Source: Tannerella sp.
GTDB lineage: Bacteria; Bacteroidota; Bacteroidia; Bacteroidales; Tannerellaceae
DNA length: 64,000 bases
Direction: 5' to 3'
Assembly (NCBI GenBank): GCA_031285565.1
Contig: JAITVY010000117.1
Coordinates: 1 to 64,000, forward strand
Shown here: positions 27,701 through 47,362 of the stretch, piece after piece
Position numbering within the stretch: position 1 is the stretch's first letter
Layout of the letters: each line of letters opens with the position of its first letter
The notes under the pieces: generated by a model
The model's database searches: none
Told to the model about the DNA's origin: nothing
Seen by the model: only the letters and a program-made list of their open reading frames with translations
Translations under genes and position numbers: made by a program

Positions 27701-27752
27701 ACACACAATTATTACTAACCTCAAAATCAAATTGCCTATGATAATGAATCAA

Positions 27753-27900
27753 TATTTTAAGTAGTGAGAGCAGAAGTCAACTTTTACGAGGGTGAGAGCA
27801 GAAGCCGAACTTGTTCGGATTATGCCGAGACAAGTAAATGCACTTTTAAGAAACTTGTTCGGATTATACCGAGTCACGCAAAATGACTAATGGAATTGAA
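27753..27900. repeat. dispersed intergenic repeat, about three partial copies in a row
   Basis: Consecutive partial copies of a unit that reads roughly GAGnGCAGAAGYC, a short hairpin, GGATTATGCCGA, and ACGCAAAATGACTAAT. The hairpin CCGAAC-TT-GTTCGG is at 27804-27817. The tail recurs at 47570-47596 and nearly the whole unit at 59600-59670. It lies in the fecR-susC spacer and is not part of a gene that I can see. Confidence 0.65.
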
Positions 27901-27921
27901 GAATAAGATGCTATAATGAAA

Positions 27922-27950
27922 ACAGACGGATGCTGGTAACATCCGCCTGT
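27922..27950 (+). promoter_or_regulatory. hairpin in the susC leader region
   Basis: ACAGACGGATG pairs with CATCCGCCTGT (10 of 11 positions), loop CTGGTAA. No T-run follows. A second stem, ATTGCCC (27968-27974) with GGGCAAT (27989-27995), ends 29 bases before the susC start. Leader structures of this kind could act in attenuation or mRNA processing; this is inferred. Confidence 0.4.
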
Positions 27951-28023
27951 GAGTGAATCTAATTAACATTGCCCCAAATAGACAAGCCGGGCAATATCGT
28001 ATCATTAAATACAATACAAATCT

Positions 28024-31416: not shown

Positions 31417-31421
31417 AGACG

Positions 31422-33062
31422 ATGAAACGAAACATTAAATCAATCAAATATATCATATGTGGACTGTTTGTATCTTTCTTTTTCATCACTTCATGCGATT
31501 TGGAAAGAAATCCGTTAGATCAGTTTGCCGAAAATGACTTTTGGACGGACGAAGATAATGCGCTATTGGCGCTTACAGGCATTTATAAAACGGAAATATT
31601 GTTTAATTCGCCGGAGTACACTCCTACTGACTGGTGGAGCTACGGAGGACTTGTTTTTATGGAATTTCCAACGGATAATGCATACGATCGGCGGGGAGCC
31701 AATTCCAACTTCCATCGTATGACAAACGGTACTTTGCTGGCAAATAATGCCTATATAAATGCCTATTGGTCAAATTCGTATAAGAAAATAGCCCGTTGTA
31801 ATCGTTTCCTGGAGGGAATTGATCAATTAACCGATTCTCCGGAACTGGCGGCACGTTTAAAAGCGGAGGCACAATTTCTTCGTGCATCGCAGTATTTCTA
31901 TTTATCGCAGTTTTTTGGGGATGTTCCATTAGTCACTAAAACATTAACACGGGATGAAGCTAATGTTGTTCCTAAAAATGCTAAGGCGGAAATTATGTCA
32001 TTCCTGGTTGATGAGTTTACCAAGAGCGCAGCCGGGCTTCCGCGTTTTAAAGATTTAGAGGCAAGCGAGACCGGAAGAGCATCCAAACAAGCAGCCCTTG
32101 CTTTTCTGGGGAGGACGCTTTTGAGTGAGAAACGGTATGCTGAAGCAGCCAAGGCTTATGAAGAAATTATCGGTTATGGCGATAATATAATTGATCCGGA
32201 TTATAGTTCATTATTTATCCCTTCAAATGAAAATAGTGCAGAAAATATTCTTTCAATGCAGTATTTACAGGATCTGGCTGGTAATGCAATGCCACAGCAT
32301 GCTTATCCGGTAAAAGACGGAGGATGGTGTCTAATAAATGTAGGGGGCTCTCTATTCGAAGCATATGATTTTATTGATGGAACTTCGTTTAGTTATGAAA
32401 GTTCGCTATATAATCCGGAAAATCTGGGTGAAAATAGAGATCCGCGTTTAGATTATACAATGTACTATGATGGGGCAACTTTCAAGGGCTCAAAATTTAA
32501 TTGTCATCCCGATTCGGATAGTAAGGATAAAATAGCTTCCGGGCAAACTACACAAACCGGGCTTATGATGCGGAAGTATTTTGACGAAGGGTTCAACGGC
32601 AACTTAAATAGTTACGGAGCGAATATTCCGATCATCCGATATGCAGAAGTATTACTGAGTTATCTGGAAGCAAAACTGGAAGCCGGAGACCCGATAAGCC
32701 AGGATTTACTGGATCAAACCATAAACCGGGTAAGGGGGCGTAGTTCGGTTGGTATGCCTCCTGTTACGGTAACAAATGCTGACCAGCTTCGTCCGGTATT
32801 GCGAAACGAACGTAGGGTGGAATTAGGTATGGAAGGTATTCGCTACTGGGATTTGTTACGTTGGGAAATTGCGCATGAGGTATTGAACGGACCTATTTTA
32901 GGAGCGCCTTACCCTGGTTCTACCAGAGTGAGTCCATTACCTGACGGTACGATTGATAAATATGGAAGATGGTATGTGCTTTCACGGGCATTCAGGAAAG
33001 ACCAGGATTATCATTGGCCTATTCCTCAGAGTGAACAAAATATTAATCCTAATTTGAGGTGA
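31422..33062 (+). CDS. SusD/RagB-family surface glycan-binding lipoprotein
   Basis: A 546-residue outer-membrane lipoprotein that caps the SusC channel and binds glycans. Signal peptide and lipobox FFITSC (Cys25), then the SusD N-terminal domain (NPLDQFAENDFWTDEDNALLALTGIY) and the RagB/SusD C-terminal domain, with the family-typical RNERRVELGMEGIRYWDLLRW near 463 and the tail RKDQDYHWPIPQSEQNINPNL. Co-transcribed with susC. A long palindrome at 33133-33188 lies 70 bases past the stop and separates the transport pair from the sulfatases. Confidence 0.95.
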   Translation: MKRNIKSIKYIICGLFVSFFFITSCDLERNPLDQFAENDFWTDEDNALLALTGIYKTEILFNSPEYTPTDWWSYGGLVFMEFPTDNAYDRRGANSNFHRMTNGTLLANNAYINAYWSNSYKKIARCNRFLEGIDQLTDSPELAARLKAEAQFLRASQYFYLSQFFGDVPLVTKTLTRDEANVVPKNAKAEIMSFLVDEFTKSAAGLPRFKDLEASETGRASKQAALAFLGRTLLSEKRYAEAAKAYEEIIGYGDNIIDPDYSSLFIPSNENSAENILSMQYLQDLAGNAMPQHAYPVKDGGWCLINVGGSLFEAYDFIDGTSFSYESSLYNPENLGENRDPRLDYTMYYDGATFKGSKFNCHPDSDSKDKIASGQTTQTGLMMRKYFDEGFNGNLNSYGANIPIIRYAEVLLSYLEAKLEAGDPISQDLLDQTINRVRGRSSVGMPPVTVTNADQLRPVLRNERRVELGMEGIRYWDLLRWEIAHEVLNGPILGAPYPGSTRVSPLPDGTIDKYGRWYVLSRAFRKDQDYHWPIPQSEQNINPNLR

Positions 33063-33132
33063 AAGAGAGCTACCTTTAAATCTCCCAGAGGAGAAAACTT
33101 AGGGAGAAAGTAATGGTGAGCCATCTGAAAAG

Positions 33133-33188
33133 AATTGTCATGTCTGGTTTCCACCCCAATATTGGGATGGAAACTCAGTATGACAAAT
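33133..33188 (+). repeat. 56-base in-register palindrome between susD and the first sulfatase
   Basis: The two halves meet at 33160/33161. The inner helix (33147-33160 with 33161-33174) pairs at 13 of 14 positions, and the outer helix (33135-33141 with 33180-33186) at 7 of 7, with G-U pairs and two mismatches between. No T-run follows, so it is not a simple terminator. It may reduce sulfatase expression relative to susCD or protect the mRNA end. The rest of 33063-33379 holds no gene. Confidence 0.6.
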
Positions 33189-33379
33189 TAATATCAAAAT
33201 TACCTTTATTCTGTGCTTTTCTTATGGTAATCAATTATTATCTCCATATATTTGTTAGCTTATGCGTTATGAAGTGAATAAGCATGAACAGAGGGGGAGC
33301 TTTCCGCTTTTCTGATTAATATTTGTGGCTTAATTGTTTGGATGATATATATGTATTAAAATGAAATAGATCGTTGTCT

Positions 33380-34747
33380 ATGAAAAAAATTATAAAATAT
33401 TCGCTGATTACAACTTCGGCATTCATAATGACTGGCAATGCTCAGGAAACCCAAACGAATATTATACTTATTAATTGCGACGATCTGGGTTATGGCGACT
33501 TAGGCTGTTATGGACATCCGACTATAAAAACTCCCAATCTGGATCAAATGGCGTGTGAAGGACAACGTTGGACCAGTTTTTATGTCACATCCGCGGTGTC
33601 GTCTCCCAGCCGTGCCGGGTTAATGACTGGTCGTCTGGGTGTCAGAACCGGTATGTATGGCGATAACCGAAGTGTTTTGTTTCCGGATTCTCCGGAAGGG
33701 TTACCTCCAAGCGAACAAACAATCGCTACATTAATAAAGCAAAAAGGCTATATTTCGGCATGTGTTGGAAAATGGCATTTGGGGCATAAAGAAGAATCAT
33801 TACCATTAAAACATGGATTTGATTATTTTTATGGTATTCCGTATTCAAATGATATGAGTAAAAAAGAGCAAAACTTAATGGGTAATAATTATTACAACAC
33901 AGAGTTGCCCTTTTATCAACAGGAGAAAATTATTGAAACGGATCCGGATCAAACTCAATTGACAAAGCGTTTGACAGAATATGCTGTTACCTTTATAAAA
34001 AAGCAAAAGAATAAACCTTTCTTTTTATATTTGGCCCATCCGATGCCGCATATACCTTTGTATGCTTCTGAAGCTTTTCAGGGGAAGTCAATTCGCGGAA
34101 AGTATGGAGACGCTGTTGAAGAAATTGACTGGTGTGTCGGACAATTATTAGACGCTTTAAAAAAATATAACCTGGATAGTAATACGCTTGTTATATTTAT
34201 TTCTGATAATGGCCCCTGGTTATCGTATGGCATTGACGGAGGATCAGCCGGATTACTAAAAGACGGAAAAGGTTCCACATGCGAAGGAGGCTTCAGGGTT
34301 CCATGCATTGTGTGGGGAAAGAATATAATGCCTGGAGTTGTGACGGACATGGCTAGTACCCTTGATTTATTACCGACATTTTGCGAATTGGCAGGAGTGA
34401 AGATGCCTAATGACAGGGTATATGATGGAGGAAGTTTGACACCGGTTTTATATCATAAAACTGAATGTTTCCGTGAGATATATCCATTCTTTAGGGGAAA
34501 GGAAATGTATGCTTTTCGAAAAGGAAAATATAAGATACATTTTATATCGCGGCCGGCCTATGGGCCTGATGATCGTACGATTCATAGAATGCCCTTGTTG
34601 TATGATATTGAAAATGATCCTGGTGAGCAATATAATATAGCTTCCAAATATCCGGATATTGTAAAAGAACTGTCTGAAAAAGCTAAAGAATATTTGTCAA
34701 CGCTGGAAATAAAAGAGAGTCTGTTTGATCTGGAACCTGAAAAGTAA
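33380..34747 (+). CDS. sulfatase 1 (serine-type formylglycine motif)
   Basis: An alkaline-phosphatase-fold sulfatase of the S1 type, 455 residues, exported by a signal peptide ending near GNAQ (about 21). Metal-site residues appear in NCDDLGYGDLGCYG (32-45). The maturation motif is S74-S-P-S-R, so Ser74 should become formylglycine, which under anoxic conditions needs a radical SAM anaerobic sulfatase maturase. CVGKWHLGH and FISDNGP are also present. The frame allows a TTG at 33374, but the ATG at 33380 begins the signal peptide directly. First of four consecutive sulfatase genes. The sulfated sugar is not deducible here. Confidence 0.92.
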   Translation: MKKIIKYSLITTSAFIMTGNAQETQTNIILINCDDLGYGDLGCYGHPTIKTPNLDQMACEGQRWTSFYVTSAVSSPSRAGLMTGRLGVRTGMYGDNRSVLFPDSPEGLPPSEQTIATLIKQKGYISACVGKWHLGHKEESLPLKHGFDYFYGIPYSNDMSKKEQNLMGNNYYNTELPFYQQEKIIETDPDQTQLTKRLTEYAVTFIKKQKNKPFFLYLAHPMPHIPLYASEAFQGKSIRGKYGDAVEEIDWCVGQLLDALKKYNLDSNTLVIFISDNGPWLSYGIDGGSAGLLKDGKGSTCEGGFRVPCIVWGKNIMPGVVTDMASTLDLLPTFCELAGVKMPNDRVYDGGSLTPVLYHKTECFREIYPFFRGKEMYAFRKGKYKIHFISRPAYGPDDRTIHRMPLLYDIENDPGEQYNIASKYPDIVKELSEKAKEYLSTLEIKESLFDLEPEK

Positions 34748-34786
34748 GATGTTGAATTGATATAAAATATATTTAACGAAGAAATA

Positions 34787-36199
34787 ATGAGAACTGCAGA
34801 TTTTATTTATTTATCGGGAATACTTCTTCCTGTTTTTGTGGGATGTAAGGAGAAAAAAACATCTCCTGAAGAGTCAACCCCTCTGAATGTAATTTACATT
34901 CTGGCTGATGATCTGGGGTATGGTGATATCGGATGTTACGGACAATCTATCATAAAAACGCCTCATCTGGACCGGATGGCTACTGAGGGAATGCTTTTTA
35001 CACAGCACTATGCAGGATGTACAGTGAGTGCGCCTTCACGGGCTTCTTTAATGACCGGATTTCATACCGGACATACGCAAATTCGTGGAAATAAGGAGGT
35101 AAACCCCGAAGGGCAAACTCCAATGAAAGGAGATACCTATACATTAGCAAAATTATTTAAGAGTAAAAACTATGCTACAGGCATCTTTGGAAAATGGGGG
35201 TTAGGTTATCCTGGATCGGAATCGGAACCTAATGCGATGGGTTTTGATGAATTCTATGGATATAATTGTCAGCGGGAGGCACATTCCTATTATCCGGGTC
35301 ATTTATGGCATAACAGGGAGAAAGTTGAATTTCCGGAAAATGTTGACCCGGGGCGTCAGACGTATTCACATGATCTGATTCATCAGCAAGCCCTACAATT
35401 CATCCGGAATCAGAAAGATGCGCCTTTTTTTGCTATGCTGACGTATACGCTTCCTCATGCAGAACTTAATCTTCCACATGATTCCATATATCGGATGTAT
35501 GAAAATCAGTTTGAAGAGGCTCCTTACGACCAGTCCGGCAGTTATTTCCGTTCGGATAAGCCACGGGCATCGTTTGCAGCTATGGTTTCACAGTTGGATA
35601 TGTATGTGGGGGAGATTATGGATGAATTGAGAAGACAGGGACTGGATAAAAATACAATCATATTTTTTACGAGTGATAACGGGCCTCATCAGGAAGGAGG
35701 GGCTGACCCCGCATTTTTCAACAGTGGAGGTCCGTTGAAGGGAGTTAAGCGTGATTTGTATGAAGGAGGTATTCGGGTTCCGTTGCTCGTCTGGTCTCCC
35801 GGACATGTAAAAGCCGCTGTTGTCTCTGACCATGTTTCTGCATTTTGGGATATGATGCCGACATTTGCCGGGATGATAGGAGCCGAATTGTCCCAACCAA
35901 CTGATGGAATCTCTTTTTTGCCTACCTTGTTTGGAGAGGGTAATCAACAAACGCATGATTTCCTGTACTGGGAGTTTCACGAACAAGGGGGCCGTCAAGC
36001 CATCAGGAAAGACAACTGGAAGCTGATCCGACAAGGTATATCTGCAGAAGGTGGTACTTGGCTTGAGTTGTATGATTTAAATACAGATAAGCATGAAGAC
36101 ACTAACCTGGCGGAGGCAGAACCGGGAAAAGTAAAAGAATTAGCAGGGATAATGGATAATGCCCGTACTGAATCGGAACTTTTTAATTTTGGGAGGTAA
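34787..36199 (+). CDS. sulfatase 2, lipoprotein (serine-type)
   Basis: S1-type sulfatase of 470 residues with lipobox VFVGC (Cys20), so probably anchored to a membrane. Metal-site motif ILADDLGYGDIGCYG begins at 38; the maturation motif is S81-A-P-S-R, with formylglycine expected at Ser81, followed by ASLMTG. FGKWGLG takes the place of the more common GKWHLG, and FTSDNGPHQEGG holds the second metal-site segment. It starts 39 bases after the first sulfatase and is likely co-transcribed. It differs enough from its neighbours to suggest another sulfate position or sugar. Confidence 0.92.
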   Translation: MRTADFIYLSGILLPVFVGCKEKKTSPEESTPLNVIYILADDLGYGDIGCYGQSIIKTPHLDRMATEGMLFTQHYAGCTVSAPSRASLMTGFHTGHTQIRGNKEVNPEGQTPMKGDTYTLAKLFKSKNYATGIFGKWGLGYPGSESEPNAMGFDEFYGYNCQREAHSYYPGHLWHNREKVEFPENVDPGRQTYSHDLIHQQALQFIRNQKDAPFFAMLTYTLPHAELNLPHDSIYRMYENQFEEAPYDQSGSYFRSDKPRASFAAMVSQLDMYVGEIMDELRRQGLDKNTIIFFTSDNGPHQEGGADPAFFNSGGPLKGVKRDLYEGGIRVPLLVWSPGHVKAAVVSDHVSAFWDMMPTFAGMIGAELSQPTDGISFLPTLFGEGNQQTHDFLYWEFHEQGGRQAIRKDNWKLIRQGISAEGGTWLELYDLNTDKHEDTNLAEAEPGKVKELAGIMDNARTESELFNFGR

Positions 36200-36312
36200 G
36201 ACCCCCGGCCCCTAAAGGGGAAAAATAGACTCCAAACCCTTGGAGCGGTTTTAGAAGAAAGGGGAAGGAGATTTAATGCTGAAATCTTGAATATTAAATA
36301 TTTAATTTACAT
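36200..36312. other. spacer with short C/G hairpins
   Basis: Between sulfatases 2 and 3. It contains CCCCTAAAGGGG followed by AAAAA (36209-36225), which could form a weak hairpin. The purine/pyrimidine-skewed text resembles degraded intergenic repeat sequence rather than a gene. Confidence 0.35.
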
Positions 36313-37851
36313 ATGAAACAAAAAGTGATACTTGGAATAGGAACAACTATGCTTGTGGCCTGTTCCGGAAATGCAAAAAAAGCAACAGAAGAACCTGTTG
36401 CCGAAACGAAGCCAAATGTAATTATTATTCTGGCGGATGACATCGGATATGGAGATTTAGGTTTTAATGGTGAAAAAACAATCCGGACACCTAATGCCGA
36501 CCGGTTAGCTTCGCAAGGTATCCGGTTTACGGATGCACATGCTGTTGCCGCGACAAGTACTCCATCCCGCTATTCTTTATTAACCGGACACTATGCCTGG
36601 AGACGCAACGATACCGGAATTGCTGCCGGTGACGCAGGTATGATCATTCGTCCGGAGCAAACAACAATGGCAGATATGTTCCGGGATGCAGGTTATACGA
36701 CTGGCGCCGTAGGCAAATGGCACCTAGGATTGGGAGATACCCAGGGATCGCAGGACTGGAATGGATTTATTACTCCCGGACCTACGGATATAGGTTTTGA
36801 CTATTCGTATATAATGGCTGCAACGGGCGATCGCGTGCCATGTGTATATGTAGAAAACCAGCGGATTGTCAATCTTGACCCCAATGATCCGATTGAAGTC
36901 AGTTACAAAGAACCTTTTCCGGGTGAACCTTTAGGAAAAGATCATCCGGAATTATTGACAGTCTTAAAACCAAGCCTGAATCATGGTCATGATATGGCTA
37001 TTGTCAACGGAGTCTCACGCATCGGATATATGAAAGGTGGTAAGAGCGCTTTGTGGTTGGATGAAAATATCGCAGACAGTATTACCTATAAGGCCGTAAG
37101 GTTTATCGAGAATAATAAAGACAATCCGTTTTTCCTTTATTTTGCGACCAACGATATTCATGTACCTCGCGTACCGCATCCTCGTTTCGTAGGCTCTACA
37201 ACGATGGGAGCGCGTGGCGATGCGATTATGGAATTCGACTGGAGTGTCGGACAGATCCTGGAAACTCTTGACAGGTTGGGTTTAACTGAAAATACATTGA
37301 TCGTACTGACAAGTGATAATGGTCCGGTGGTAGATGATGGATATGCAGACAGGGCGGTTGAATTGTTAGGAGAACATCGTCCATGGGGAGATTTCCGCGG
37401 AGGAAAGTATAGCAGTTTTGAAGCCGGAACACGGGTCCCGTTTCTCGTAAGCTGGCCGGCACAAATAAAACCTGCAGTTTCGGACGCACTTGTTTCACAT
37501 ATAGATTTGTTTGCTTCATTTGCAGGATTGCTGGACCAGTCGTTGCCTGGAAATGTGGCGCCTGACAGCAGGAACCAATTGGATGCATTTACAGGAAAAA
37601 CAGTGGAGGGGCGCGATTATATTATTGAGCAAGCCGGTTCGCTGTCTGTTTCAACAGCAGAATGGAAATATATTTCTCCGAGTGACGGAGCGCCTTATAA
37701 TGCGTTGACCAATACCGAGATGGGGAATGATAAAGAGCCTCAGTTATATAATCTGAAACAAGATATCGGGGAAAAGAAAAACTTAGCTACAGAAAATCCT
37801 GAAAAAGTAAATGAATTAAAATCTGTTCTGGAAAAGGAACGTTCTAAATGA
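36313..37851 (+). CDS. sulfatase 3, lipoprotein (serine-type)
   Basis: S1-type arylsulfatase-like enzyme of 512 residues with lipobox MLVAC (Cys17). Metal-site motif ILADDIGYGDLGFNG near 39; the maturation motif is S82-T-P-S-R followed by YSLLTGHYAWRR. VGKWHLGLG near 133 and LTSDNGPVVDDGY near 335 complete the active site. A long insertion between GKWHLG and the DNGP motif (with GDRVPCVYVENQ) distinguishes it from sulfatases 1 and 2. Its stop overlaps the start of sulfatase 4 by four bases (ATGA), so the two are translationally coupled. Confidence 0.92.
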   Translation: MKQKVILGIGTTMLVACSGNAKKATEEPVAETKPNVIIILADDIGYGDLGFNGEKTIRTPNADRLASQGIRFTDAHAVAATSTPSRYSLLTGHYAWRRNDTGIAAGDAGMIIRPEQTTMADMFRDAGYTTGAVGKWHLGLGDTQGSQDWNGFITPGPTDIGFDYSYIMAATGDRVPCVYVENQRIVNLDPNDPIEVSYKEPFPGEPLGKDHPELLTVLKPSLNHGHDMAIVNGVSRIGYMKGGKSALWLDENIADSITYKAVRFIENNKDNPFFLYFATNDIHVPRVPHPRFVGSTTMGARGDAIMEFDWSVGQILETLDRLGLTENTLIVLTSDNGPVVDDGYADRAVELLGEHRPWGDFRGGKYSSFEAGTRVPFLVSWPAQIKPAVSDALVSHIDLFASFAGLLDQSLPGNVAPDSRNQLDAFTGKTVEGRDYIIEQAGSLSVSTAEWKYISPSDGAPYNALTNTEMGNDKEPQLYNLKQDIGEKKNLATENPEKVNELKSVLEKERSK

Positions 37852-39410
37852 AACGAAGAACTTTCTTAAAAACATCTCTTGGTACCGGATTGGGATTAAG
37901 TACCGGGACATTGTTATCCCAAACGGTATCCAGGGCAACTTCTGCCGGAAACGGAAAGAAGAAGCCCCATGTTATCTTTATAATGACTGACCAGCATCGT
38001 GCCGATGCATTGGGTTGTATGAGTAATAAAGCTGTTATTTCTCCTCATATTGACAAGCTGGCTAAGGAAGGTACATTGTTTATTTCGGGTTATTCTTCTT
38101 CACCAAGTAGTACACCGGCGCGAAGCGGTCTGTTGACAGGTCTTTCGCCATGGCATCATGGGATGTTAGGATATGGACAGGTCGCTAAGCAATATAAATA
38201 CGAAATGCCCCAAATGATGCGTAACCTGGGTTACTATACTTTTGGTATTGGTAAAATGCATTGGTTTCCACAAAAATCATTACACGGTTTTCATGCTACC
38301 CTGGTTGACGAGAGTGGGAGAGTGGAAAGTCCTGACTTTATCAGTGATTACCGGGAATGGTTTCAATTGCAGTCTCCGGGAGCAGATCCTGATTTGACAG
38401 GTATCGGATGGAACGATCATCGTGCAGGCATATATAAGCTTGACGAGAAGTTACACCCGACCACCTGGACAGGACAAAAGGCATGCGAATTAATTCGTAA
38501 TTATAAGGATGATAAACCTTTATTCCTAAAAGTGTCTTTCGCCCGTCCACATAGTCCATATGACCCGCCTGAACGTTATCTGAATATGTATAAAGATGTT
38601 GAGATTCCGGCGCCTTTTACCGGTGACTGGTGTGGAGATTTAAGTACCCCCTTGGATCCGGAAAAAGCTGCTCCTGATGCTGCTTTTGGGAATTTTGGAG
38701 CCGACTATGCCAAAGAATCACGGCGACATTATTATGCAAACGTCACATTTATAGATGACCAGATCGGTGAAATTATACGGACGTTGAAGGAAAAGGGTAT
38801 GTATGATGATTCAATCATCTGTTTTACTTCCGATCATGGGGACATGCTGGGCGACCATTATCACTGGCGAAAAACATATCCTTATGAAGGCTCAGCTGCT
38901 ATTCCTTATATCGTGAAATGGCCGGGAAACCTGCCAAGAGAAAAAAATACTTCTGTAATTAGTCAACCAGTAGAATTAAGGGATTTTCTTCCTACATTTA
39001 TCGATCTGGCAGGAGGAGAAGTTCCTCCTGATATGGATGGTATGTCTTTACGGAAGCTGGTTCAGGGAAAGCAGGATGAATGGAGAACTTATATTGATAT
39101 GGAACATGCAACCTGTTACCGGAATGAGAATTACTGGTGTGCATTAACAGACGGGAAAATAAAATATATCTGGAATTTTAATACAGGATCAGAACAGTTG
39201 TTTGATCTGGAGAAAGATCCCAAGGAACTTATAGAGTGCTCAAAAAATAAAAAATATGCAGTTACGATAGAGAAAATGCGTAAGGCTATGATTGAACATT
39301 TATCGGAACGGGGAGATGATTTTGTGAAAAATGGTCGGTTGGCAACCCGTATATCCACAATGTTATATAGCCCTTATTATCCGCAGATAAAAGACGTATC
39401 GAAAAGCTAA
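37848..39410 (+). CDS. sulfatase 4 with twin-arginine-like signal (serine-type)
   Basis: S1-type sulfatase of 520 residues. The N-terminus MKRRTFLKTS matches the twin-arginine export consensus, unlike the lipoprotein or Sec signals of the other three. Metal-site motif FIMTDQHRADALGC near 44; the maturation motif is S88-T-P-A-R followed by SGLLTG, again serine-type. FTSDHGDMLGDHYHWRK near 326 has a DHG variant of the usual DNG. It overlaps the preceding gene by 4 bases. If it is really exported folded by Tat, its formylglycine would be made in the cytosol before export, which fits radical SAM maturation. Confidence 0.9.
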   Translation: MKRRTFLKTSLGTGLGLSTGTLLSQTVSRATSAGNGKKKPHVIFIMTDQHRADALGCMSNKAVISPHIDKLAKEGTLFISGYSSSPSSTPARSGLLTGLSPWHHGMLGYGQVAKQYKYEMPQMMRNLGYYTFGIGKMHWFPQKSLHGFHATLVDESGRVESPDFISDYREWFQLQSPGADPDLTGIGWNDHRAGIYKLDEKLHPTTWTGQKACELIRNYKDDKPLFLKVSFARPHSPYDPPERYLNMYKDVEIPAPFTGDWCGDLSTPLDPEKAAPDAAFGNFGADYAKESRRHYYANVTFIDDQIGEIIRTLKEKGMYDDSIICFTSDHGDMLGDHYHWRKTYPYEGSAAIPYIVKWPGNLPREKNTSVISQPVELRDFLPTFIDLAGGEVPPDMDGMSLRKLVQGKQDEWRTYIDMEHATCYRNENYWCALTDGKIKYIWNFNTGSEQLFDLEKDPKELIECSKNKKYAVTIEKMRKAMIEHLSERGDDFVKNGRLATRISTMLYSPYYPQIKDVSKS

Positions 39411-40717: not shown

Positions 40718-40804
40718 ACATTTTCTCAAGGAATCATTTTAGAATATATCAAAAAATACATTTTGGCGTTTTTTATCCTCCCACTTTTTATCAGACAATA
40801 ATGA

Positions 40805-40828
40805 AAATACCCCATAAATGGGGTATTT
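40805..40828. promoter_or_regulatory. palindromic operator-like site before the peptide cluster
   Basis: AAATACCCCA, loop TAAA, TGGGGTATTT: a perfect 10-base inverted repeat. It covers the place where the -33 element of the promoter at 40847-40854 should be, so a bound protein there could block or recruit polymerase. No T-run follows, so a terminator is less likely. Confidence 0.5.
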
Positions 40829-40846
40829 CAGGTGCTTGAATTACCT

Positions 40847-40854
40847 TATTTTTG
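40847..40854 (+). promoter_or_regulatory. -7 element of the peptide-modification operon
   Basis: TATTTTTG, matching TAnnTTTG, 35 bases before the ATG at 40889. No good -33 element is present; that region is occupied by the palindrome at 40805-40828. Confidence 0.5.
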
Positions 40855-40888: not shown

Positions 40889-41314
40889 ATGGATAAACCA
40901 ATAAACAGGAGGGACTTTTTGTACAAACTTGGTCTCAGGACTTCTTTGACAATAGCCGGTTTTTTTACGTTTGATAAACTATTGTCTGATCAGGGAGAAG
41001 ATATTTCTGAACTGGAAAACCAGTTCTCAGATATACCTTGTTTGGCTGCAGATGTGAGGAGAGACTACGAGAACGGACATATTGTTCTGTCGGGGCAAAG
41101 TTCGAAATGTTTTGCTAATGAAACCGGTGAGAAAATTATTGACTGGATGGATGGCAAAAACACGTTGCCGGATATTACTTCCAATCTTTCTGAATATTAC
41201 TCTATTGATAACACCGAATCGTTAGAAGCATCTGTAGCGACTTTCATTTGCCAGTTGGCTACAATGGGCTTTCTTACTTCACCTTTTTATGTTACTCTAT
41301 ATGAAAATTATTAA
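40889..41314 (+). CDS. PqqD-like peptide-binding protein with twin-arginine-like N-terminus
   Basis: A 141-residue protein. Residues about 55-132 fit the PqqD fold, the RiPP recognition element that holds leader peptides for modifying enzymes: CFANETGEKIIDWMDGKNTL, then ITSNLSEYYSID, then VATFICQLATMGFL. Unusually, the N-terminus is NRRDFLYKLGLRTSLTIAGFFTF (first residues 6-25), a twin-arginine-like motif followed by a hydrophobic stretch, which suggests membrane association or export. It is the first gene of a tight run and overlaps the radical SAM gene by 14 bases. Recognition of the Cys-rich protein two genes down is inferred. The PqqD fold is likely; its location in the cell is open. Confidence 0.75.
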   Translation: MDKPINRRDFLYKLGLRTSLTIAGFFTFDKLLSDQGEDISELENQFSDIPCLAADVRRDYENGHIVLSGQSSKCFANETGEKIIDWMDGKNTLPDITSNLSEYYSIDNTESLEASVATFICQLATMGFLTSPFYVTLYENY

Positions 41315-42662
41315 GAAACCAGCGGAAATAAATAATGAATTGTATGTCATCAACCGAGGTGATAATTCATTCATTCTTTACTCTCCACTAAATAAAAAAG
41401 TGGGTGTTATTAATGGTTCGGGCGCTAATACTATAACCAAATATTTTAGTGAAGAATCATTGGGTAATGAAGAAGAATTATTTATTGAAAACCTGTATCA
41501 AAATGATTTTCTCAATGAGACTGCACTTGAAAAACCGGTATTCCCTTCTACATTCGAATTTTTGCCCACTGAAGTAACCCTGTTTGCAACCAGTAGATGT
41601 AATCTCCGTTGTCGGTATTGTTACGCTGATGCAGGGAAGAAAAGTGAAGATATGTCATTGGAAACGGCCAAAGCGGCAATTGATTTGGTCGCATATAATG
41701 CCGGGTTGGCGGGATTGTCACATTTTGTTGTTGGTTTTCATGGAGGTGGAGAGCCTACTGTAGCCTGGGATCTGGTGTCGGCTGCTACAGAATATGCTCA
41801 TGAAGTAGCTCTTCAAAAGGGTTTGGATGTTGAAATTTTTGCGGCTACCAATGGTACATTTAATAAAAAACAAAGGGAGTTTATTCTGAAATATTTTACC
41901 AATCTCAATATATCAATTGATGGTCCTGCTGATGTTCAGGATTATAACAGGCCAATGATCAATGGTTCCGGATCTTTTCAGGTTATAAAGGATAATTTGA
42001 AGTTTTTTGATGAACATGGTTTTGATTATGGAGTCCGATCCACTATTACGGAAAAAGATGTACACCGGATAGAAGAAATTGTTGAATGGTTCAAATCAGA
42101 GTTTAATATTTCGTTTTTACACTTAGAGCCTGTTTGGTTATGTGGTAGATGTATGACAAGCGGAGAAGTACCTCCAACTGACATTGATTTTATCAGTAAC
42201 TTTACGAAAGCTGCCGATAAAGCCGAAGCGATAGGTGTAAATCTAATATACAGTGGCTTGCGGTTGGATTCATTAATCTCTAAATTTTGCGCTGCAGCCG
42301 GCGATGGTTTTAATGTGCTGCCTGATGGGACAGTGACTTCGTGTTATGAGATTACGGAAAATGATAGTCCTAAAGCGGAACTTTTTCATTATGGACGATA
42401 TGATTCCGGTAGTAAACAGTTTATATTTGACAAAAATAAAATAAAACGTCTACAAAAATATTCTGTAGAGAATATTGCTCATTGCCAGGATTGTTTTTGT
42501 AAATGGCATTGTGCCGGCGATTGTGTTTCGAAGGTTTTTGATATGAGTCAATCATTTGAACATCATGGAAGTCCGCGCTGTTACCTGAACAGGCAGCTTA
42601 CAATCTGGCAACTCGAAAAATTATTAGCAAAACAAAATACAAATGTCTATGAAACCAGATGA
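41301..42662 (+). CDS. radical SAM/SPASM peptide-modifying enzyme
   Basis: A 453-residue radical SAM enzyme. Residues 1 to about 75 resemble a PqqD-like winged domain (YVINRGDNSFILYSPLNKK). The cluster motif CNLRCRYC binds [4Fe-4S] and SAM through C100, C104 and C107. GFHGGGEPT follows near 147. The C-terminal SPASM/twitch region is cysteine-rich: C395, C398, C400, C404, C408 and C427 in CQDCFCKWHCAGDC and beyond, for auxiliary clusters. Such enzymes form thioether or C-C links in peptides, or mature sulfatases. The neighbours (PqqD-like, Cys-rich small protein) favour peptide modification. The start could be the ATG at 41289. It overlaps both adjacent genes. Confidence 0.85.
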   Translation: MKIIKKPAEINNELYVINRGDNSFILYSPLNKKVGVINGSGANTITKYFSEESLGNEEELFIENLYQNDFLNETALEKPVFPSTFEFLPTEVTLFATSRCNLRCRYCYADAGKKSEDMSLETAKAAIDLVAYNAGLAGLSHFVVGFHGGGEPTVAWDLVSAATEYAHEVALQKGLDVEIFAATNGTFNKKQREFILKYFTNLNISIDGPADVQDYNRPMINGSGSFQVIKDNLKFFDEHGFDYGVRSTITEKDVHRIEEIVEWFKSEFNISFLHLEPVWLCGRCMTSGEVPPTDIDFISNFTKAADKAEAIGVNLIYSGLRLDSLISKFCAAAGDGFNVLPDGTVTSCYEITENDSPKAELFHYGRYDSGSKQFIFDKNKIKRLQKYSVENIAHCQDCFCKWHCAGDCVSKVFDMSQSFEHHGSPRCYLNRQLTIWQLEKLLAKQNTNVYETR

Positions 42663-43059
42663 TAAACCTAAAAAAATAGAGGATGCTTTTGAAAATCCTA
42701 AGTTGTATGTAATTGTTGGTGGCGAAGCTTTTCCGCGAACCGGACTGGAAACTGCTTTTATTGATTATTCAGATATTGATTTGGAATCAACGAATGAAGG
42801 TACCACTTTATCGGAAGTGACCGTTAGTTCTTCGTCAACTGTAACTGGTGGCACTCATAAAACAGGTTCTTCCCGTATTGTGCAGGTACAGGATACTATA
42901 AAAACAGTAAAACAGATAAAAATAGTAGGGTGTGCCTGTAATACTGTAGGAAGGTCGATTTGTATCTGCAACAAAGTAAGGGTCTGCGGTTGTGTTGGAT
43001 ATACTCAACCATCTACAAGAACAGTTACGACGGGATGTAGCTGTGCTCCGGTGCATTAA
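42643..43059 (+). CDS. candidate precursor peptide with four Cys-x-Cys motifs
   Basis: A 138-residue protein that I do not recognise from any family. The first 90 residues lack cysteine: an acidic, lysine-rich start, a VIVGGEAFP segment near 23-31, and a Ser/Thr-rich stretch. The last 43 residues hold all eight cysteines as four CxC pairs: C97/C99, C107/C109, C115/C117, C132/C134. This leader-plus-Cys-rich-core layout, and overlap with a radical SAM/SPASM gene by 20 bases, suggest a RiPP precursor (sactipeptide or ranthipeptide-like thioethers are possible). An ATG at 42649 is an alternative start. A metal-binding protein is the main alternative. Confidence 0.65.
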   Translation: MSMKPDDKPKKIEDAFENPKLYVIVGGEAFPRTGLETAFIDYSDIDLESTNEGTTLSEVTVSSSSTVTGGTHKTGSSRIVQVQDTIKTVKQIKIVGCACNTVGRSICICNKVRVCGCVGYTQPSTRTVTTGCSCAPVH

Positions 43060-43085
43060 TGTAAAAAATAATATATCGTATGAAA
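43056..43085. repeat. 30-base direct repeat, copy 1
   Basis: Begins with the stop region of the Cys-rich gene (TTAATG) and ends in ATGAAA. An identical 30-base copy lies at 43149-43178, where its ATGAAA is the start of the next gene. Copy 1's ATG opens an 11-codon frame (43080-43115). Confidence 0.9.
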
Positions 43086-43148
43086 CGAAGCATGAGAACA
43101 AGATTTTCACCATAAGAGAATGATATATATGCTGAGTCCTATACATCC

Positions 43149-43178
43149 TTAATGTAAAAAATAATATATCGTATGAAA
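43149..43178. repeat. 30-base direct repeat, copy 2
   Basis: Identical to 43056-43085 and 93 bases from it. It contains the start codon of the helical-repeat gene at 43173. The pair looks like the footprint of a tandem duplication or of a deletion between repeats. Confidence 0.9.
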
Positions 43179-44024
43179 TCAATTTATTTTATCATATCGG
43201 TCGCTGTGCTTTTTCTTTGGAACATGCCTGCAACAGCACAGAAAATGGAATCCAAAGAGCGACAAATGGATCTACGCGATCCGCATGCATACAATACGGC
43301 TGCTGAAATGCTTATGTGTGCTGATACGTTACCATATACGGAGGCAATAGATATCATACTGGACCTTATATCCGATAATATCAACGCAGGAATGTTAATT
43401 GAAGACGAACAAATATGGAAGTTACTTAAGAAACTGGAACCGTACCGGATGACAGAACAAGTACAGATGGCCGTAAATGTATGGATTGATAAAACACTGG
43501 AAAATATTGCTGAAAAGCAGAAGGATAAGATGGTGCCAGCCAAACATATGCAATCTATGTCTATCGCATATAAAGAAAAGGATTTTGAAAAAGCGGTGAA
43601 TATAGCCTGCGATCTTCTGTTGGATATCCCCAATACACTTGATACAAGGAATAATTTGGCTTTAGCGCTTATGCATCTGAATTATGATTTGTGTGCCCAA
43701 ATAGAATTGGAGATTATTCGTAGAATGAGTGATCAGTATGCTCCGGGATTGATTAACCTGACGGTTTTGAATGAACGTATGAACAGAAGTGACTATGCAA
43801 GAGGACTTTCCAGAGAACTTCTACTTTCTTCCAGAGAAGAATCTTCAGATGTACAACTGGCACGTTTTAATGCAGCATGGTATTTGAATGAAGAGGGTGA
43901 TTATAAGGAGGCAGATTTAGTCCTTAACAAGATAAAGGAACCGGCTTATAATAAGATAAAAAAATATACTGATTTGAAAGCGGCAAATAAGAAACAGTTG
44001 AAGGAAGTTGGAAAGGTAAAATAA
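43173..44024 (+). CDS. secreted helical-repeat (TPR-like) protein of the peptide cluster
   Basis: A 283-residue exported protein: signal peptide 1-22 (ends ATAQ), then almost all alpha-helix. Segments such as MQSMSIAYKEKDFEKAVNIACDLL, NTLDTRNNLALALMHLNYDL and ARFNAAWYLNEEGDYKEADLVL have the spacing of tetratricopeptide repeats (first residues of each quoted only as landmarks). TPR proteins act as binding scaffolds; here the partner could be the modified peptide or an envelope enzyme. It lies 5 bases before the B12-type radical SAM gene. No enzymatic motif is seen. Confidence 0.7.
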   Translation: MKSIYFIISVAVLFLWNMPATAQKMESKERQMDLRDPHAYNTAAEMLMCADTLPYTEAIDIILDLISDNINAGMLIEDEQIWKLLKKLEPYRMTEQVQMAVNVWIDKTLENIAEKQKDKMVPAKHMQSMSIAYKEKDFEKAVNIACDLLLDIPNTLDTRNNLALALMHLNYDLCAQIELEIIRRMSDQYAPGLINLTVLNERMNRSDYARGLSRELLLSSREESSDVQLARFNAAWYLNEEGDYKEADLVLNKIKEPAYNKIKKYTDLKAANKKQLKEVGKVK

Positions 44025-44028
44025 ACGT

Positions 44029-45576
44029 ATGAATTCAATCAAGACCATGCGCTGGGTTTTAATCCGTCCGCTGAATCGAAGCCTATTCTATGATCCGGAA
44101 ATACAAGAGCCTCTAGGCCTGGAGTACCTTTCTGCTACTTTAAAAAAAAGCGGTTGTCAGGTTCTCTTATTGGATAGTGCATTAAATAATTTGCATGACA
44201 TTAAACTAGCCCGTAGGGTAGCTTCTTTTCAGCCGGATGCAATTGGCTTTTCCATAACTACCGACCGTGAACTGGAATCGGTGAATGCAATCTATACTAC
44301 ATGTAAGGAGATTTTGCATGATAAACAGCTGTTCTGGATTGCCGGAGGTAATTATGCTACTTCTGAATTTAACAATGCATGTAAAGTGCTACCTACTGAG
44401 ATGCACATCCTTAAGTATGAAGGAGAAGTCTCAATAAAAAAAATCTGTTCGCTATGGATGGATGGATTAATTGATACTTTGCCCAGGGTGATTCATGGAG
44501 AACCTGCTGTATTAGATGAACTTCCATTCCCCGAAAGGCCTTATCATCATTATGTGCTCAATTTTGGATTTGCTTTTAATGTTCAGGGATCCCGTGGATG
44601 TTGCAGCGCCTGTAAATACTGTGCATCTAAAGGAATGCGTGGTGGTAAATTATATTCATGGAGGGGACGTAGCCCGGAGAATATGGTCAGTGAACTGGCT
44701 TACCTGTACCAGAATTATGGAGCACGTTCTTTTAATTTTGTCGATGAAGATTTTCTGGGTCCTCCGGCCGGTGCACTCGAACGTTCGGAACGTTTCATGA
44801 ACGAGATAAAAAAGCACAATCTGAAAATTACAATCGGTATTCAGGTGAGACCTAATTCCCTGTCTGAAAAGATAATCGACAATCTGTATGCGTCCGGATT
44901 AACGTATGTGTTTATGGGCATAGAATCGGATAATCCGGAAGATTTTAAAAAATGGGGAAGGAGTTTTTGTAAGGATACATGGCAACTGGTGGATTGTTTG
45001 CAGCAGAGAGGAATCGAAATAAATGCGGGTACTTTATTGTTTCATCCTGACTGTACGTTTGAAGGTATTCGGAATTTTTCCGTTCGGTTACGTCAATATG
45101 GTTTGCTCAACAGCCGGACAGCTACTAACCGCCTGGATGCAATGCCCGGATCTTTTTTTTATGAACAATACTTCTCCGAACATCCCGAAGACAAGACACA
45201 GGGAGTTATTCGTTTGCCATTCAAAAATCCGGATATAGAACCTTTTTTTCAAATTGTTCGTGAAGTGTTGGCTCCCATCGAAATACCTTCTATGCATGCA
45301 TTATGTATTATGCCAATCATTCAAACAGGTAGAGTCTTTGAAAATCTGGAAGAAAAGTATCAACTTTTAAAATCAATTAATTCCGATTGTGATGATCAGG
45401 TATCTTCTTGTTTCTTTTCTGTACTTGAGATGTTTGAAAATGATTGTTATTCCAGGCCTGAAATAGATAGTATGATAAACAATAACATCGAATTCGGTAA
45501 GATTACAATGGATCGTTTAATAAAAAGCGGCTTTCATGAAAACCTATCGCATAGTAGCACCAATTTGTTCGGTTGA
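44029..45576 (+). CDS. B12-binding-type radical SAM enzyme
   Basis: A 515-residue protein with the class B layout. The N-terminal Rossmann domain (about 8-140: EPLGLEYLSATLKKSGCQVL, then LLLDSALNN) has the cobalamin-binding fold, but the DxHxxG loop is not seen, so cobalamin would bind without the lower histidine, as in several family members, or not at all. The radical SAM motif GCCSACKYC gives C191, C195 and C198. FNFVDEDFLGP near 238 and FMGIESDNPE near 307 fit the core fold. Members methylate unactivated carbons or do ring chemistry. It overlaps the next gene by 41 bases. Target unknown; the Cys-rich peptide is the natural candidate. Confidence 0.85.
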   Translation: MNSIKTMRWVLIRPLNRSLFYDPEIQEPLGLEYLSATLKKSGCQVLLLDSALNNLHDIKLARRVASFQPDAIGFSITTDRELESVNAIYTTCKEILHDKQLFWIAGGNYATSEFNNACKVLPTEMHILKYEGEVSIKKICSLWMDGLIDTLPRVIHGEPAVLDELPFPERPYHHYVLNFGFAFNVQGSRGCCSACKYCASKGMRGGKLYSWRGRSPENMVSELAYLYQNYGARSFNFVDEDFLGPPAGALERSERFMNEIKKHNLKITIGIQVRPNSLSEKIIDNLYASGLTYVFMGIESDNPEDFKKWGRSFCKDTWQLVDCLQQRGIEINAGTLLFHPDCTFEGIRNFSVRLRQYGLLNSRTATNRLDAMPGSFFYEQYFSEHPEDKTQGVIRLPFKNPDIEPFFQIVREVLAPIEIPSMHALCIMPIIQTGRVFENLEEKYQLLKSINSDCDDQVSSCFFSVLEMFENDCYSRPEIDSMINNNIEFGKITMDRLIKSGFHENLSHSSTNLFG

Positions 45577-46510
45577 TGAAATTGAGCCTGTATTAGAGGC
45601 CGGGGCTTCCGAGGTTTATTTTGGAATTATGCCTGAAAAATGGGAGAGGGAATATGGAAGTATGGATTTTATTACCCGGCGTCAGAACAGACAGGCGCAT
45701 ATTGCAAGTTACGATGATTTAAAGGAGATCGTTCATATAGTCAACGATAGAAATGCGACAGCTACTTTGGTACTGAATGCAGGTTATTCAAGCAATCAAA
45801 TCCCATTTGTTTTTGAGATTTTGAAACAATGGGAAACTTGCGGGGGACATGCTGTTATGGTTTACGATATCGAAATTCTGCTTTGGCTGAATAGCACAGG
45901 TAGCAAACTGGAACGACAACTTTCTGTTATGTCCGGAGTCTTTAACAGTCATAGTATAGATTTTTTTAAGCAATTCAATATATCCAGGGTTGTTCTTCCC
46001 AGAGAATTATCACTGAGTGAAATAGATGAATTTGTAAGAAGCGCGGGTCAGGAGGTTGGCTATGAGAGTATTGTGATGTTTCAAAAATGCGAATTCATAG
46101 ATGCCTTCTGCCAATTTTATCATGCAGTCTGTTATCAACCCTATGTTGTTGAAAACTGTTCGGGTTTATCCGGAAAATATCTACCGGTTATTGAAAGCTA
46201 CGATCCTTATTATGAGGGTCATGGATGTCAAATGGATTTTTTGTGTAAAAACCGGAAGATTAAACATCTTGAAAATAATGATTTTCAGACCCCTTATTGT
46301 GCGGCTTGTTCATTGGATTTTTTGCTGAAAAAAGGTGTCAATAATTTAAAAATTGCAGGTAGGGGCTATCCGGTAAAACTGATTGCGGATACCGTACGAT
46401 TTATAAAGAGAACAATAGAACGACCAGCTACACAATCTGATATGATTAAATCTGATTATCTGTTAACATTCGGTTGTACTTGTCAGTTAATGAATTGTTA
46501 TTATCAATAG
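45536..46510 (+). CDS. U32-family protein, UbiU-like
   Basis: A 324-residue member of the so-called peptidase U32 family. The start RIVAPICSVDEIEPVLEAGA and ASEVYFGIMPE fit the TIM-barrel N-terminus, and FNSHSIDFFKQFNISRVVLP with RELSLSEID is the conserved middle. Cysteines cluster in the second half (C185, C192, C199, C208, C231, C237, C255, C258), enough for an iron-sulfur cluster as in UbiU, TrhP and RlhA, which hydroxylate substrates without O2. Its stop abuts the start of a second U32-like gene, so the two probably form a heteromer like UbiU-UbiV. O2-independent hydroxylation of the peptide is inferred, not shown. Confidence 0.75.
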   Translation: MKTYRIVAPICSVDEIEPVLEAGASEVYFGIMPEKWEREYGSMDFITRRQNRQAHIASYDDLKEIVHIVNDRNATATLVLNAGYSSNQIPFVFEILKQWETCGGHAVMVYDIEILLWLNSTGSKLERQLSVMSGVFNSHSIDFFKQFNISRVVLPRELSLSEIDEFVRSAGQEVGYESIVMFQKCEFIDAFCQFYHAVCYQPYVVENCSGLSGKYLPVIESYDPYYEGHGCQMDFLCKNRKIKHLENNDFQTPYCAACSLDFLLKKGVNNLKIAGRGYPVKLIADTVRFIKRTIERPATQSDMIKSDYLLTFGCTCQLMNCYYQ

Positions 46511-47362
46511 ATGAAGAATCCGGTTGAGATGGAAATCGCTTATATGGTTGATCTCAGGAAAGGTAATAAACTTGAGATACCGCCCTGTAAACGAATCTAT
46601 TTCGGACATGAAACCTGTGAAAAATTGTTACCTGTATGGGATGATTGTCAGCCACTAATGGATATTTCCTTTAAACAAAACCTTGAATTGACTTTTATAA
46701 CTCCTTTTTTAACAGACAGAGGGTTCGAGAAAACCACGAAGTTTTTGGAACAATTAAAAACGGTAAAACCCACGATAGAGATTGTAACTTCAGACTGGGG
46801 GCTACTGAATTGGGTAGTGAATCAGAAATCATTAATTCCGGTTATCGGACGATTCCAGATAGGTCAACAACTTGATTTCCGCTTAATGAGGTTGGGAAAG
46901 GCAGATAGAGAAGAGCGGACTATAATGGTGGATGGGAAATTTTTCAGATTGTTACCTAAGGAACAAACAATGGCGTTGAAAGATCATCTGTCGTCTTGTA
47001 CGTTATTAAAAGAAAATACGATGGAAATGTTCGCACAATTGTCAATTAATCGATTTGAGGTAAGTAATACCTTTCAGTCTGTGCAACTTGTCAATAAAGA
47101 AGGGCTTCACTACTCTTTGCATGTCCCTTATGTTCCGCTTACAATTTTCAGATCCTGTCCGGACAATTTAAATTTTAAAGAAAAAAGAAGCTGTAATATC
47201 AACCGGTGTCTGAACAACCGGTCTAAATGGCTCAATGAAACCTATGGGTGCGATATTTACTGTATTGATAATGCTCTTTATTACAGTAATACCTGTTTCT
47301 ATGGGCATACAAAATCAAATCCGGGTATTGATCGGCTCGTTTTTCATGAAACATTTAATTAA
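46511..47362 (+). CDS. U32-like partner protein, UbiV-like
   Basis: A 283-residue protein starting at the base after the previous stop. The middle part (IEIVTSDWGLLNWVVNQKSL, then PVIGRFQIGQQLDFRLMR) matches the U32 family, where a short barrel segment is followed by a conserved arginine region; FEVSNTFQ resembles the position that reads as ELS in homologues. The C-terminal third is rich in cysteine (RSCPDN, then KRSCNINRCLNN, CDIYC and NTCFYG), as in UbiV. Alone I would call it only weakly; its adjacency to the clearer U32 protein raises confidence. It is the last gene of the run. Confidence 0.6.
   Translation: MKNPVEMEIAYMVDLRKGNKLEIPPCKRIYFGHETCEKLLPVWDDCQPLMDISFKQNLELTFITPFLTDRGFEKTTKFLEQLKTVKPTIEIVTSDWGLLNWVVNQKSLIPVIGRFQIGQQLDFRLMRLGKADREERTIMVDGKFFRLLPKEQTMALKDHLSSCTLLKENTMEMFAQLSINRFEVSNTFQSVQLVNKEGLHYSLHVPYVPLTIFRSCPDNLNFKEKRSCNINRCLNNRSKWLNETYGCDIYCIDNALYYSNTCFYGHTKSNPGIDRLVFHETFN

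Follow-up and report, generated by a model that had tools for sequence, protein, structure and literature searches.

Among the systems described so far, the closest to the locus considered here are the SPASM-type radical S-adenosylmethionine (SAM) peptide maturases, for whose PapB type the substrate motif is given as Cys-X3-Asp in PMC9413430, and the UbiU-UbiV pair, which PMC6747719 presents as a heterodimer with one [4Fe-4S] cluster in each partner and a CXnCX12CX3C cysteine pattern in UbiV, and which, as reported in PMC10470549, hydroxylates without O2. Here we analyzed a window of 64,000 nucleotides from Tannerella sp. (the whole stretch of DNA from contig JAITVY010000117.1), in which seven consecutive open reading frames (ORFs), designated A to G, combine relatives of both systems. 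The original prediction had read these genes as a candidate for a new type of pathway for ribosomally synthesized and post-translationally modified peptides (RiPPs). This is still the best reading, to which we assign a probability of roughly 0.6: the cassette would be a RiPP-type peptide-modification system that is not named in the libraries searched, with the small protein C as its substrate and with A, B, E, F and G in the roles proposed below. It is supported by the conserved leader and core of C, by the PqqD-like protein A, and by the co-occurrence of relatives of B with proteins that are rich in Cys-X-Cys (CxC) pairs. Among the titles and abstract openings retrieved from an open library, which covers few subscription journals and no bioRxiv preprints as such, no U32 or CxC-repeat WD40 protein appeared in a RiPP context, and the term 'U32' is absent from the main text of a Bacteroidales RiPP-mining paper (PMC10352776).

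In the window, C consists of a leader (ENPKLYVIVGGEAFPRTGLETAFIDYS), a variable spacer and a core with four CxC pairs (in CACNTV, CICNKV, CGCVGY and CSCAPV) that ends in GCSCAPVH. This architecture recurs in five genomes of one family, namely the window's own and those of loci L009, L010, L015 and L016. Over these five copies the leader has the consensus FEDPKLFVVIGEExFPRTGLETAFIDYS, the spacer varies in length and sequence, and the C-terminus is invariably GC[SR]CAPVH. Four CxC pairs from eight cysteines, which in the window's C are all the cysteines there are, were found in the copies of the window, L009, L010 and L015, and the L016 copy has five pairs from 11 cysteines, one cysteine being unpaired. 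The CxC content of C exceeds chance, as the window's count was matched by just 7 of 20,000 composition shuffles (5 to 11 of 20,000 across the five copies), which bears out the small Cys-rich protein noticed in the original prediction. A precursor with leader and core thus lies beside modifying enzymes in five genomes, and in the window it overlaps the gene of one of them, B. The RiPP reading would have suffered if C had occurred mostly without the other genes; C is present in all five cassettes of the family. Its search in 295 order-level genomes gave two matches, C itself and a frame in L003 (66 residues, 30%, E 0.004) that holds one cysteine and no CxC pair and was taken as a chance match rather than a homologue of C without B. 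A plasmid search with C gave no match.

A CxC-dense ORF was located within 2.5 kb of B and on the same strand at 12 of 13 B-family loci, compared to 0 of 7 loci of other radical SAM proteins, and none of 699 background ORFs more than 5 kb away from B was CxC-dense. It should be noted here that the family boundary is a judgement, and that the 12/13 and 0/7 counts use the split given by an eight-row profile, on which members score 289-794 bits and the other radical SAM proteins compared score 37-264 bits. At the lower end of the member range (289-352 bits) are the loci L024/L045 and L025/L046 of Planctomycetota as well as L028, L029 and L031. When the profile was built from Tannerellaceae alone, members at the edge of the family came to 217-229 bits, with no sharp distance to L030, L027 and a second protein of L029 (188-204 bits). 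The locus counts exclude L014 and L017, which lie on the contigs of L010 and L009, as well as L024 and L025, whose positions coincide with those of L045 and L046. The one family miss is L045, in which the WD40 gene beside B is cut by the contig end. By the same split, the CxC-bearing B loci span six phyla, including Planctomycetota, SAR324, Myxococcota, Chloroflexota and Pseudomonadota. The B-C core is therefore not confined to the seven-gene combination from which it was originally described, since B relatives adjoin CxC proteins in other phyla.

A scan with B over 84,980 species gave 25 pattern matches, of which five loci were confirmed (two in Tannerellaceae and one each in Planctomycetota, SAR324 and Myxococcales). 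An eight-sequence B profile at E 1e-80 found the protein in 3 of 294 Planctomycetota, 1 of 247 Bacteroidota (the window's own), 1 of 282 Myxococcota and 1 of 52 SAR324 genomes, where three of the four phylum scans scored no more than the five or six top candidates of each genome. Since so few genomes per phylum hold B at this threshold, B is rare. A plasmid search gave five records: relatives lie in Caballeronia, Chlorohelix (Chloroflexota) and Methylocystis, and more distant ones on an Edwardsiella and a Salmonella plasmid adjoin small proteins without CxC pairs. Among 50,697 phage records, none matched B at E 1e-20. The viral contig L027 contains one distant B relative and a 62-residue ORF with too few CxC pairs for the density test.

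The relatives of C show how the leader and the CxC stretch are combined elsewhere. A leader motif P-[KRQ]-[LIV]-[FY] was recognised by eye in the window, L009, L010, L011, L012, L013, L015, L016 and L029, and not in L028, L031 and L046. The Planctomycetota locus L011 encodes a peptide of 132 residues with nine CxC pairs, five of which are followed by [DNQ]TV, and with the end CRCVPVRAH. Behind it the locus encodes another radical SAM protein, a homologue of E of the B12 radical SAM type and a homologue of D with tetratricopeptide repeats (TPR). L011 thus shows that the combination of B, C, D and E is also present outside Bacteroidota, there arranged as B-C-x-E-D. In L012 (SAR324), L013 (Myxococcales) and L029 (Chlorohelix, two genes), the CxC stretch belongs to a WD40 or other protein, which starts with a leader-like P-[RQ]-[IV]-F and then a twin-arginine signal and carries the CxC stretch close to its C-terminal end. 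The Caballeronia locus L028 has, behind a twin-arginine signal, the sequence CSCNKESGCACVGHERCVCIGN, which is close to the window's CICNKVRVCGCVGYT. C itself has no twin-arginine signal as judged by eye. Because relatives pair CxC stretches with such signals, these stretches are apparently destined for export once they have been modified in the cytoplasm. On the Methylocystis plasmid, the neighbour of the B relative is a CxC protein rich in Asp/Glu, whose nine CxC motifs partly overlap (L031:8173-8559). The WD40/CxC loci L012, L013, L029 and L045 carry further SPASM-type radical SAM genes, and one such gene each of L012, L013 and L029 together form a clade of their own (SH-like approximate likelihood ratio test, SH-aLRT, 99), which suggests a second conserved maturase in the WD40/CxC branch.

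CxC is a common metal-binding arrangement, and with all cysteines of the window's C in such pairs, C might instead be a metal- or Fe-S-binding protein, metallothionein-like or a scaffold, that A and B modify lightly or load, so that the operon would build a redox or metal-carrying surface protein and not a cross-linked peptide. The CxC tails that three relatives have on Tat-signal proteins, mostly of the WD40 type, would suit this view, as they look structural or redox-related rather than antibiotic-like. We nevertheless consider it unlikely: the constant partner of the CxC proteins is a SPASM radical SAM protein, the leader and the PqqD protein are those of peptide-maturation systems, and searches of the cassette with Pfam and NCBIfam revealed neither a metal transporter nor an Fe-S assembly protein.

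The predicted assignment of B to the SPASM radical SAM proteins is sound for the radical SAM part, which scores above the Pfam cut-off, and for the SPASM-type cysteine spacing, but the Pfam SPASM match itself remains below threshold (15.9 versus 21.5 bits). B has the radical SAM motif CNLRCRYC, a SPASM tail C-x2-CFCKWHCAGDC and the SPASM-type cysteines C334, C352, C399, C402, C408, C412 and C431, plus an extra C404. All of these cysteines, C404 included, are invariant in eight aligned members from four phyla. For the four members tested (window, Planctomycetota, SAR324 and Myxococcales), no family of NCBIfam 20.0 scored above its cut-off. Since the two nearest named families, PapB and SCIFF, make thioethers, a thioether is the likeliest product, and B probably introduces such links in the CxC core. 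One could also suppose, from the weak similarity of B to the sulfatase maturase family (TIGR03942; 64.9 bits), that it is such a maturase serving the three sulfatase genes upstream (34787-39410), and that C is incidental. This is extremely improbable and the assignment was rejected, because the score is far below the cut-off of 349.45 bits, the relatives of B adjoin CxC proteins, and the genome encodes a separate true maturase (484.8 bits) that is excluded from the clade of B (SH-aLRT 96, in a quick, midpoint-rooted tree with long branches). B thus did not group with the maturases, as it should have done had the original prediction been wrong on this point.

The layout of the cassette was confirmed as originally predicted: all seven ORFs lie on the plus strand at 40889-47362, with overlaps between A and B (26 bases), B and C (20 bases) and E and F (41 bases), a distance of 4 bases between D and E, and F abutting G. 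The sole larger gap, of 113 bases between C and D, has an exact 30-base direct repeat on both sides (43056-43085 and 43149-43178), of which the first copy reaches 4 bases into C and the second 6 bases into D, whose start codon it contains. The copies are 93 bases apart start to start, and a local duplication looks to have added most of this gap. The order A-G is identical in the five genomes of the family, while the flanks differ among the window, L009/L010 (which have the downstream side in common), L015 and L016. We therefore regard A-G as the unit, since its order is intact in at least four contexts. L009 and L010, counted as two, are almost duplicates of each other (the individual genes share 89-94% of their DNA sequence); between them dN/dS is below 1 throughout and amounts to 0.44 for A, 0.08 for B, 0.21 for C, 0.14 for D, 0.10 for E, 0.17 for F and 0.18 for G. 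G was found in 5 of 123 genomes of the family including the window's own, which was also the only one among 295 order-level genomes. These counts refer to sampled genomes; the window's genome is rated 83% complete, and several of the compared loci come from metagenome-assembled genomes. A foreign composition of the cassette was considered and rejected (GC content 0.380 versus 0.382 for the window).

The PqqD-like gene of the original prediction was confirmed in A, which matches Pfam PqqD above the cut-off and in this respect qualifies as a RiPP recognition element (RRE). A PDB search with A gave no significant hit (PqqC/D protein, 0.16; retron ATPase, 0.79; TfuB1, 0.99). All five copies of A begin with RRxF (RRDFL in the window) and a hydrophobic stretch of 15 residues with a mean Kyte-Doolittle value of 1.2-1.8, which resembles a twin-arginine translocation (Tat) signal, and TatC is encoded in the genome. 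In the position of A, the SAR324 locus has a 137-residue ORF with a twin-arginine start, which Pfam does not support. A could therefore carry C out through Tat. The original prediction held that export would be unusual for want of a dedicated peptidase or exporter; none was indeed recognised, but export may be less unusual than was thought, in view of the Tat-like start of A and of the Tat signals present on some relatives of C.

At an E-value of 1, none of C, D and G has a Pfam match. The identification of D as a TPR protein thus does not come from D itself but from its clear TPR homologue in the Planctomycetota locus (Pfam TPR; 31.7% identity, E 1e-5). The N-terminus of D is hydrophobic in all five copies, and the D-type proteins of L015 and L011 have a hydrophobic C-terminal extension. 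For E, predicted as a B12-type radical SAM protein, the Radical_SAM match exceeds the cut-off, with CxxxCxxC at C191-C195-C198, but the B12-binding match of the window copy is just under it (31.6 versus 32.1 bits); the L011 homologue reaches 68.8 bits. E is 58-69% identical to the four other copies of the family and 27% to that of L011.

Of the two predicted U32 proteins, F is an ordinary domain match above the Pfam cut-off, and G, having no Pfam match, is not. By its profile similarity, F has a strong claim to be UbiU-like (E 1.3e-21 against a profile of eight UbiU and 1.5e-7 against eight UbiV). Nine of its cysteines are conserved in the five copies, including a CX6C, and the further ones are spaced differently than in the CX6CX16CX38C of UbiU. 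G is probably a divergent UbiV, as judged from a weak profile match, its cysteines and a gene fusion. C36, C163 and C216-X11-C228-X4-C233 are invariant (with X12 in the other four copies), and the region RIYFGHETCEK around C36 aligns with the surroundings of C39 of UbiV. Since F and G form one 642-residue ORF in L016 (genome G313), they are likely partners. G matched F with E 6.6e-4 (probability 27) in local mode and 0.55 in global mode, a single UbiV of E. coli with E 0.043, and the profiles of UbiU, B, E, A and D with 0.08-0.8. A further lead, and only that, for a U32 relative is a 792-residue SAR324 protein (L012:14028-16403), one half of which is a HemN/HutW-like radical SAM part, while its N-terminal half has a U32 match below the cut-off (E 0.0076). 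As the family is named Peptidase_U32 and the cassette has no other recognised peptidase, F and G might be true peptidases that cut the leader off C. This is improbable, given the match of F to UbiU and the UbiU/UbiV-like cysteine patterns kept by both proteins, as such cysteines are described to hold [4Fe-4S] clusters (PMC6747719).

Several observations weigh against the RiPP reading of the whole cassette. The match of G to the UbiV profile is weak (E 0.0045, probability 7.7, local; 0.32, global) when set beside the unrelated control pairs F-B (0.21) and F-E (0.016), so that the profile evidence for G is by itself suggestive. In PDB profile searches, G gave nothing below 0.42 and F just a 28-residue dehydrogenase match (0.0023), neither of them retrieving a U32 structure. 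A has no Pfam TAT_signal match at E 1, no AxA site was seen in its window copy, and a peptidase or exporter gene was not recognised in the cassette. As B scores far under every named cut-off, its product could also be a C-C, C-O or alpha-thioether link. In 11 non-Tannerellaceae loci, the F, G, UbiU and UbiV profiles found nothing at E 0.01, and homologues of E and D occurred in L011 alone. Among the loci seen, the F/G pair is thus restricted to one lineage, and D-G, being mostly unfound outside Tannerellaceae, are dispensable to the wider family and could have a different substrate. Indeed, the cassette may hold two adjacent pathways, a peptide system A-B-C-D and a set E-F-G that makes or hydroxylates a quinone- or lipid-like small molecule. 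This possible, if rather doubtful, arrangement would account for the resemblance of F/G to a ubiquinone hydroxylase pair, for the fact that E finds its best NCBIfam matches among the B12 radical SAM families of lipid and tetrapyrrole type, and for the distribution just described. It agrees less well with the overlap of E and F and the closeness of E to D, with the conservation of A-G across differing flanks, and with L011, which again groups homologues of E and D with B and C.

In the RiPP-type system that we favour, A would bind the conserved N-terminal leader of C, and B would modify the CxC core by bonding the sulfur of a cysteine to a carbon in the side chain of a residue close by, as in ranthipeptide thioethers. 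E and the F/G pair would then tailor the peptide, F/G possibly hydroxylating a residue without O2 as UbiU/UbiV do on ubiquinone precursors, perhaps with prephenate as the oxygen source by analogy; O2-free hydroxylation would suit an anaerobic gut. The product would leave the cytoplasm, conceivably as a hitch-hiker bound to the Tat-like A, and the exported D may hold it. The specific combination, in which a UbiU/UbiV-like pair hydroxylates a ribosomal peptide without O2 on top of radical SAM cross-links in the CxC core and the peptide is exported on a Tat-bearing PqqD protein, is put forward tentatively. If true, it would add a new enzyme class to peptide biosynthesis and a new route of export, with F/G as Fe-S enzymes that hydroxylate a peptide anaerobically, and the cassette would belong to a wider cross-phylum family with some members bearing the CxC tail on folded Tat/WD40 proteins. 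The data point to a family of radical SAM proteins whose substrate signature, CxC repeats in the vicinity of the enzyme, is recognisable, and they place a UbiU/UbiV-like pair in a peptide cassette.

Table 1. Features of the cassette and of its upstream region, with positions in the window. Lengths are in amino acids (aa).
Feature	Position	Strand or place	Length	Evidence
Hairpin upstream of the cassette, 11-pair stem	40804..40829			Stem of at least 8 pairs in 4 of 5 cassettes
Match to Bacteroides-type -7 motif, TATTTTTG	40847-40854	after hairpin		Consensus TAnnTTTG
A, PqqD-like (RRE-type), Tat-like N-terminus	40889..41314	+	141 aa	Pfam PqqD E 1.3e-7
B, SPASM radical SAM	41289..42662	+	457 aa	Pfam Radical_SAM 2.1e-16
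C, presumed substrate	42643..43059	+	138 aa	Leader, spacer, CxC core
C-D intergenic stretch	43056..43178			Bounded by exact 30-base direct repeat
D, predicted exported TPR-type, N-terminal signal-like stretch	43173..44024	+	283 aa	Homology to TPR protein of L011
E, B12-binding-type radical SAM	44029..45576	+	515 aa	Pfam Radical_SAM 1.9e-11
F, U32, UbiU-like	45536..46510	+	324 aa	Pfam Peptidase_U32 1.5e-21
G, probable divergent UbiV-like partner	46511..47362	+	283 aa	C36...C216-X11-C228-X4-C233

A stem of at least 8 pairs is present within the 200 bases before A in four of the five cassettes (window, L009, L010 and L015; not L016). These hairpins have 8-11 pairs and differ in sequence, except for the near-identical ones of L009 and L010, and they could be regulatory or terminators. 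TAnnTTTG, which we take to be the Bacteroides-type -7 consensus, precedes A in three of the five cassettes. Further upstream (26705-39410), the window contains a FecR-type regulator, a SusC/SusD pair and the three sulfatase genes, apparently a sulfated-glycan utilisation locus, and no link between this locus and the cassette was found.

Compared to the known systems, the cassette is nearest by score to the PapB ranthipeptide family (NF047865), with which it shares a SPASM peptide maturase and an adjoining Cys-rich substrate. B, however, reaches 134 bits against a cut-off of 340, the motif of C is CxC[DN]xV-like instead of Cys-X3-Asp (as read by eye, no cysteine of the window's C has Asp or Glu four positions on), and the cassette adds PqqD, B12 radical SAM, TPR and U32 genes. 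The SCIFF or six-Cys maturases (TIGR03974; CteB) are likewise SPASM radical SAM enzymes and provide both the second-best NCBIfam match of B (108 bits, cut-off 425) and its best solved relative, 5wgg (E 3e-20), which we take to be CteB; their substrate differs from C in size and motif. TIGR04463, which judging from its family name alone (rSAM_vs_C_rich) also joins a SPASM enzyme to a Cys-rich peptide, scores 72 bits against a cut-off of 525, and from the anaerobic sulfatase maturases B is set apart by both score and clustering. As in the PQQ/PqqD systems, the PqqD-like protein is encoded separately, next to a SPASM radical SAM enzyme and a small substrate, but A reaches 29 bits where the cut-off of the PqqD equivalog (NCBIfam) is 46 and has a Tat-like N-terminus, and the substrate is of the CxC type. 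The likeness to UbiU-UbiV lies in the adjacent U and V genes, in the CX6C of F and in the CXnCX11/12CX4C of G, to be compared with CXnCX12CX3C in UbiV. In contrast to that system, F scores 69 bits against the UbiU cut-off of 440 (NCBIfam), an SCP2-domain (UbiT-like) gene adjoins the seven plasmid UbiUV pairs fetched whereas none of the seven cassette genes has an SCP2 match, and F and G are located in a peptide cassette of Bacteroidota.

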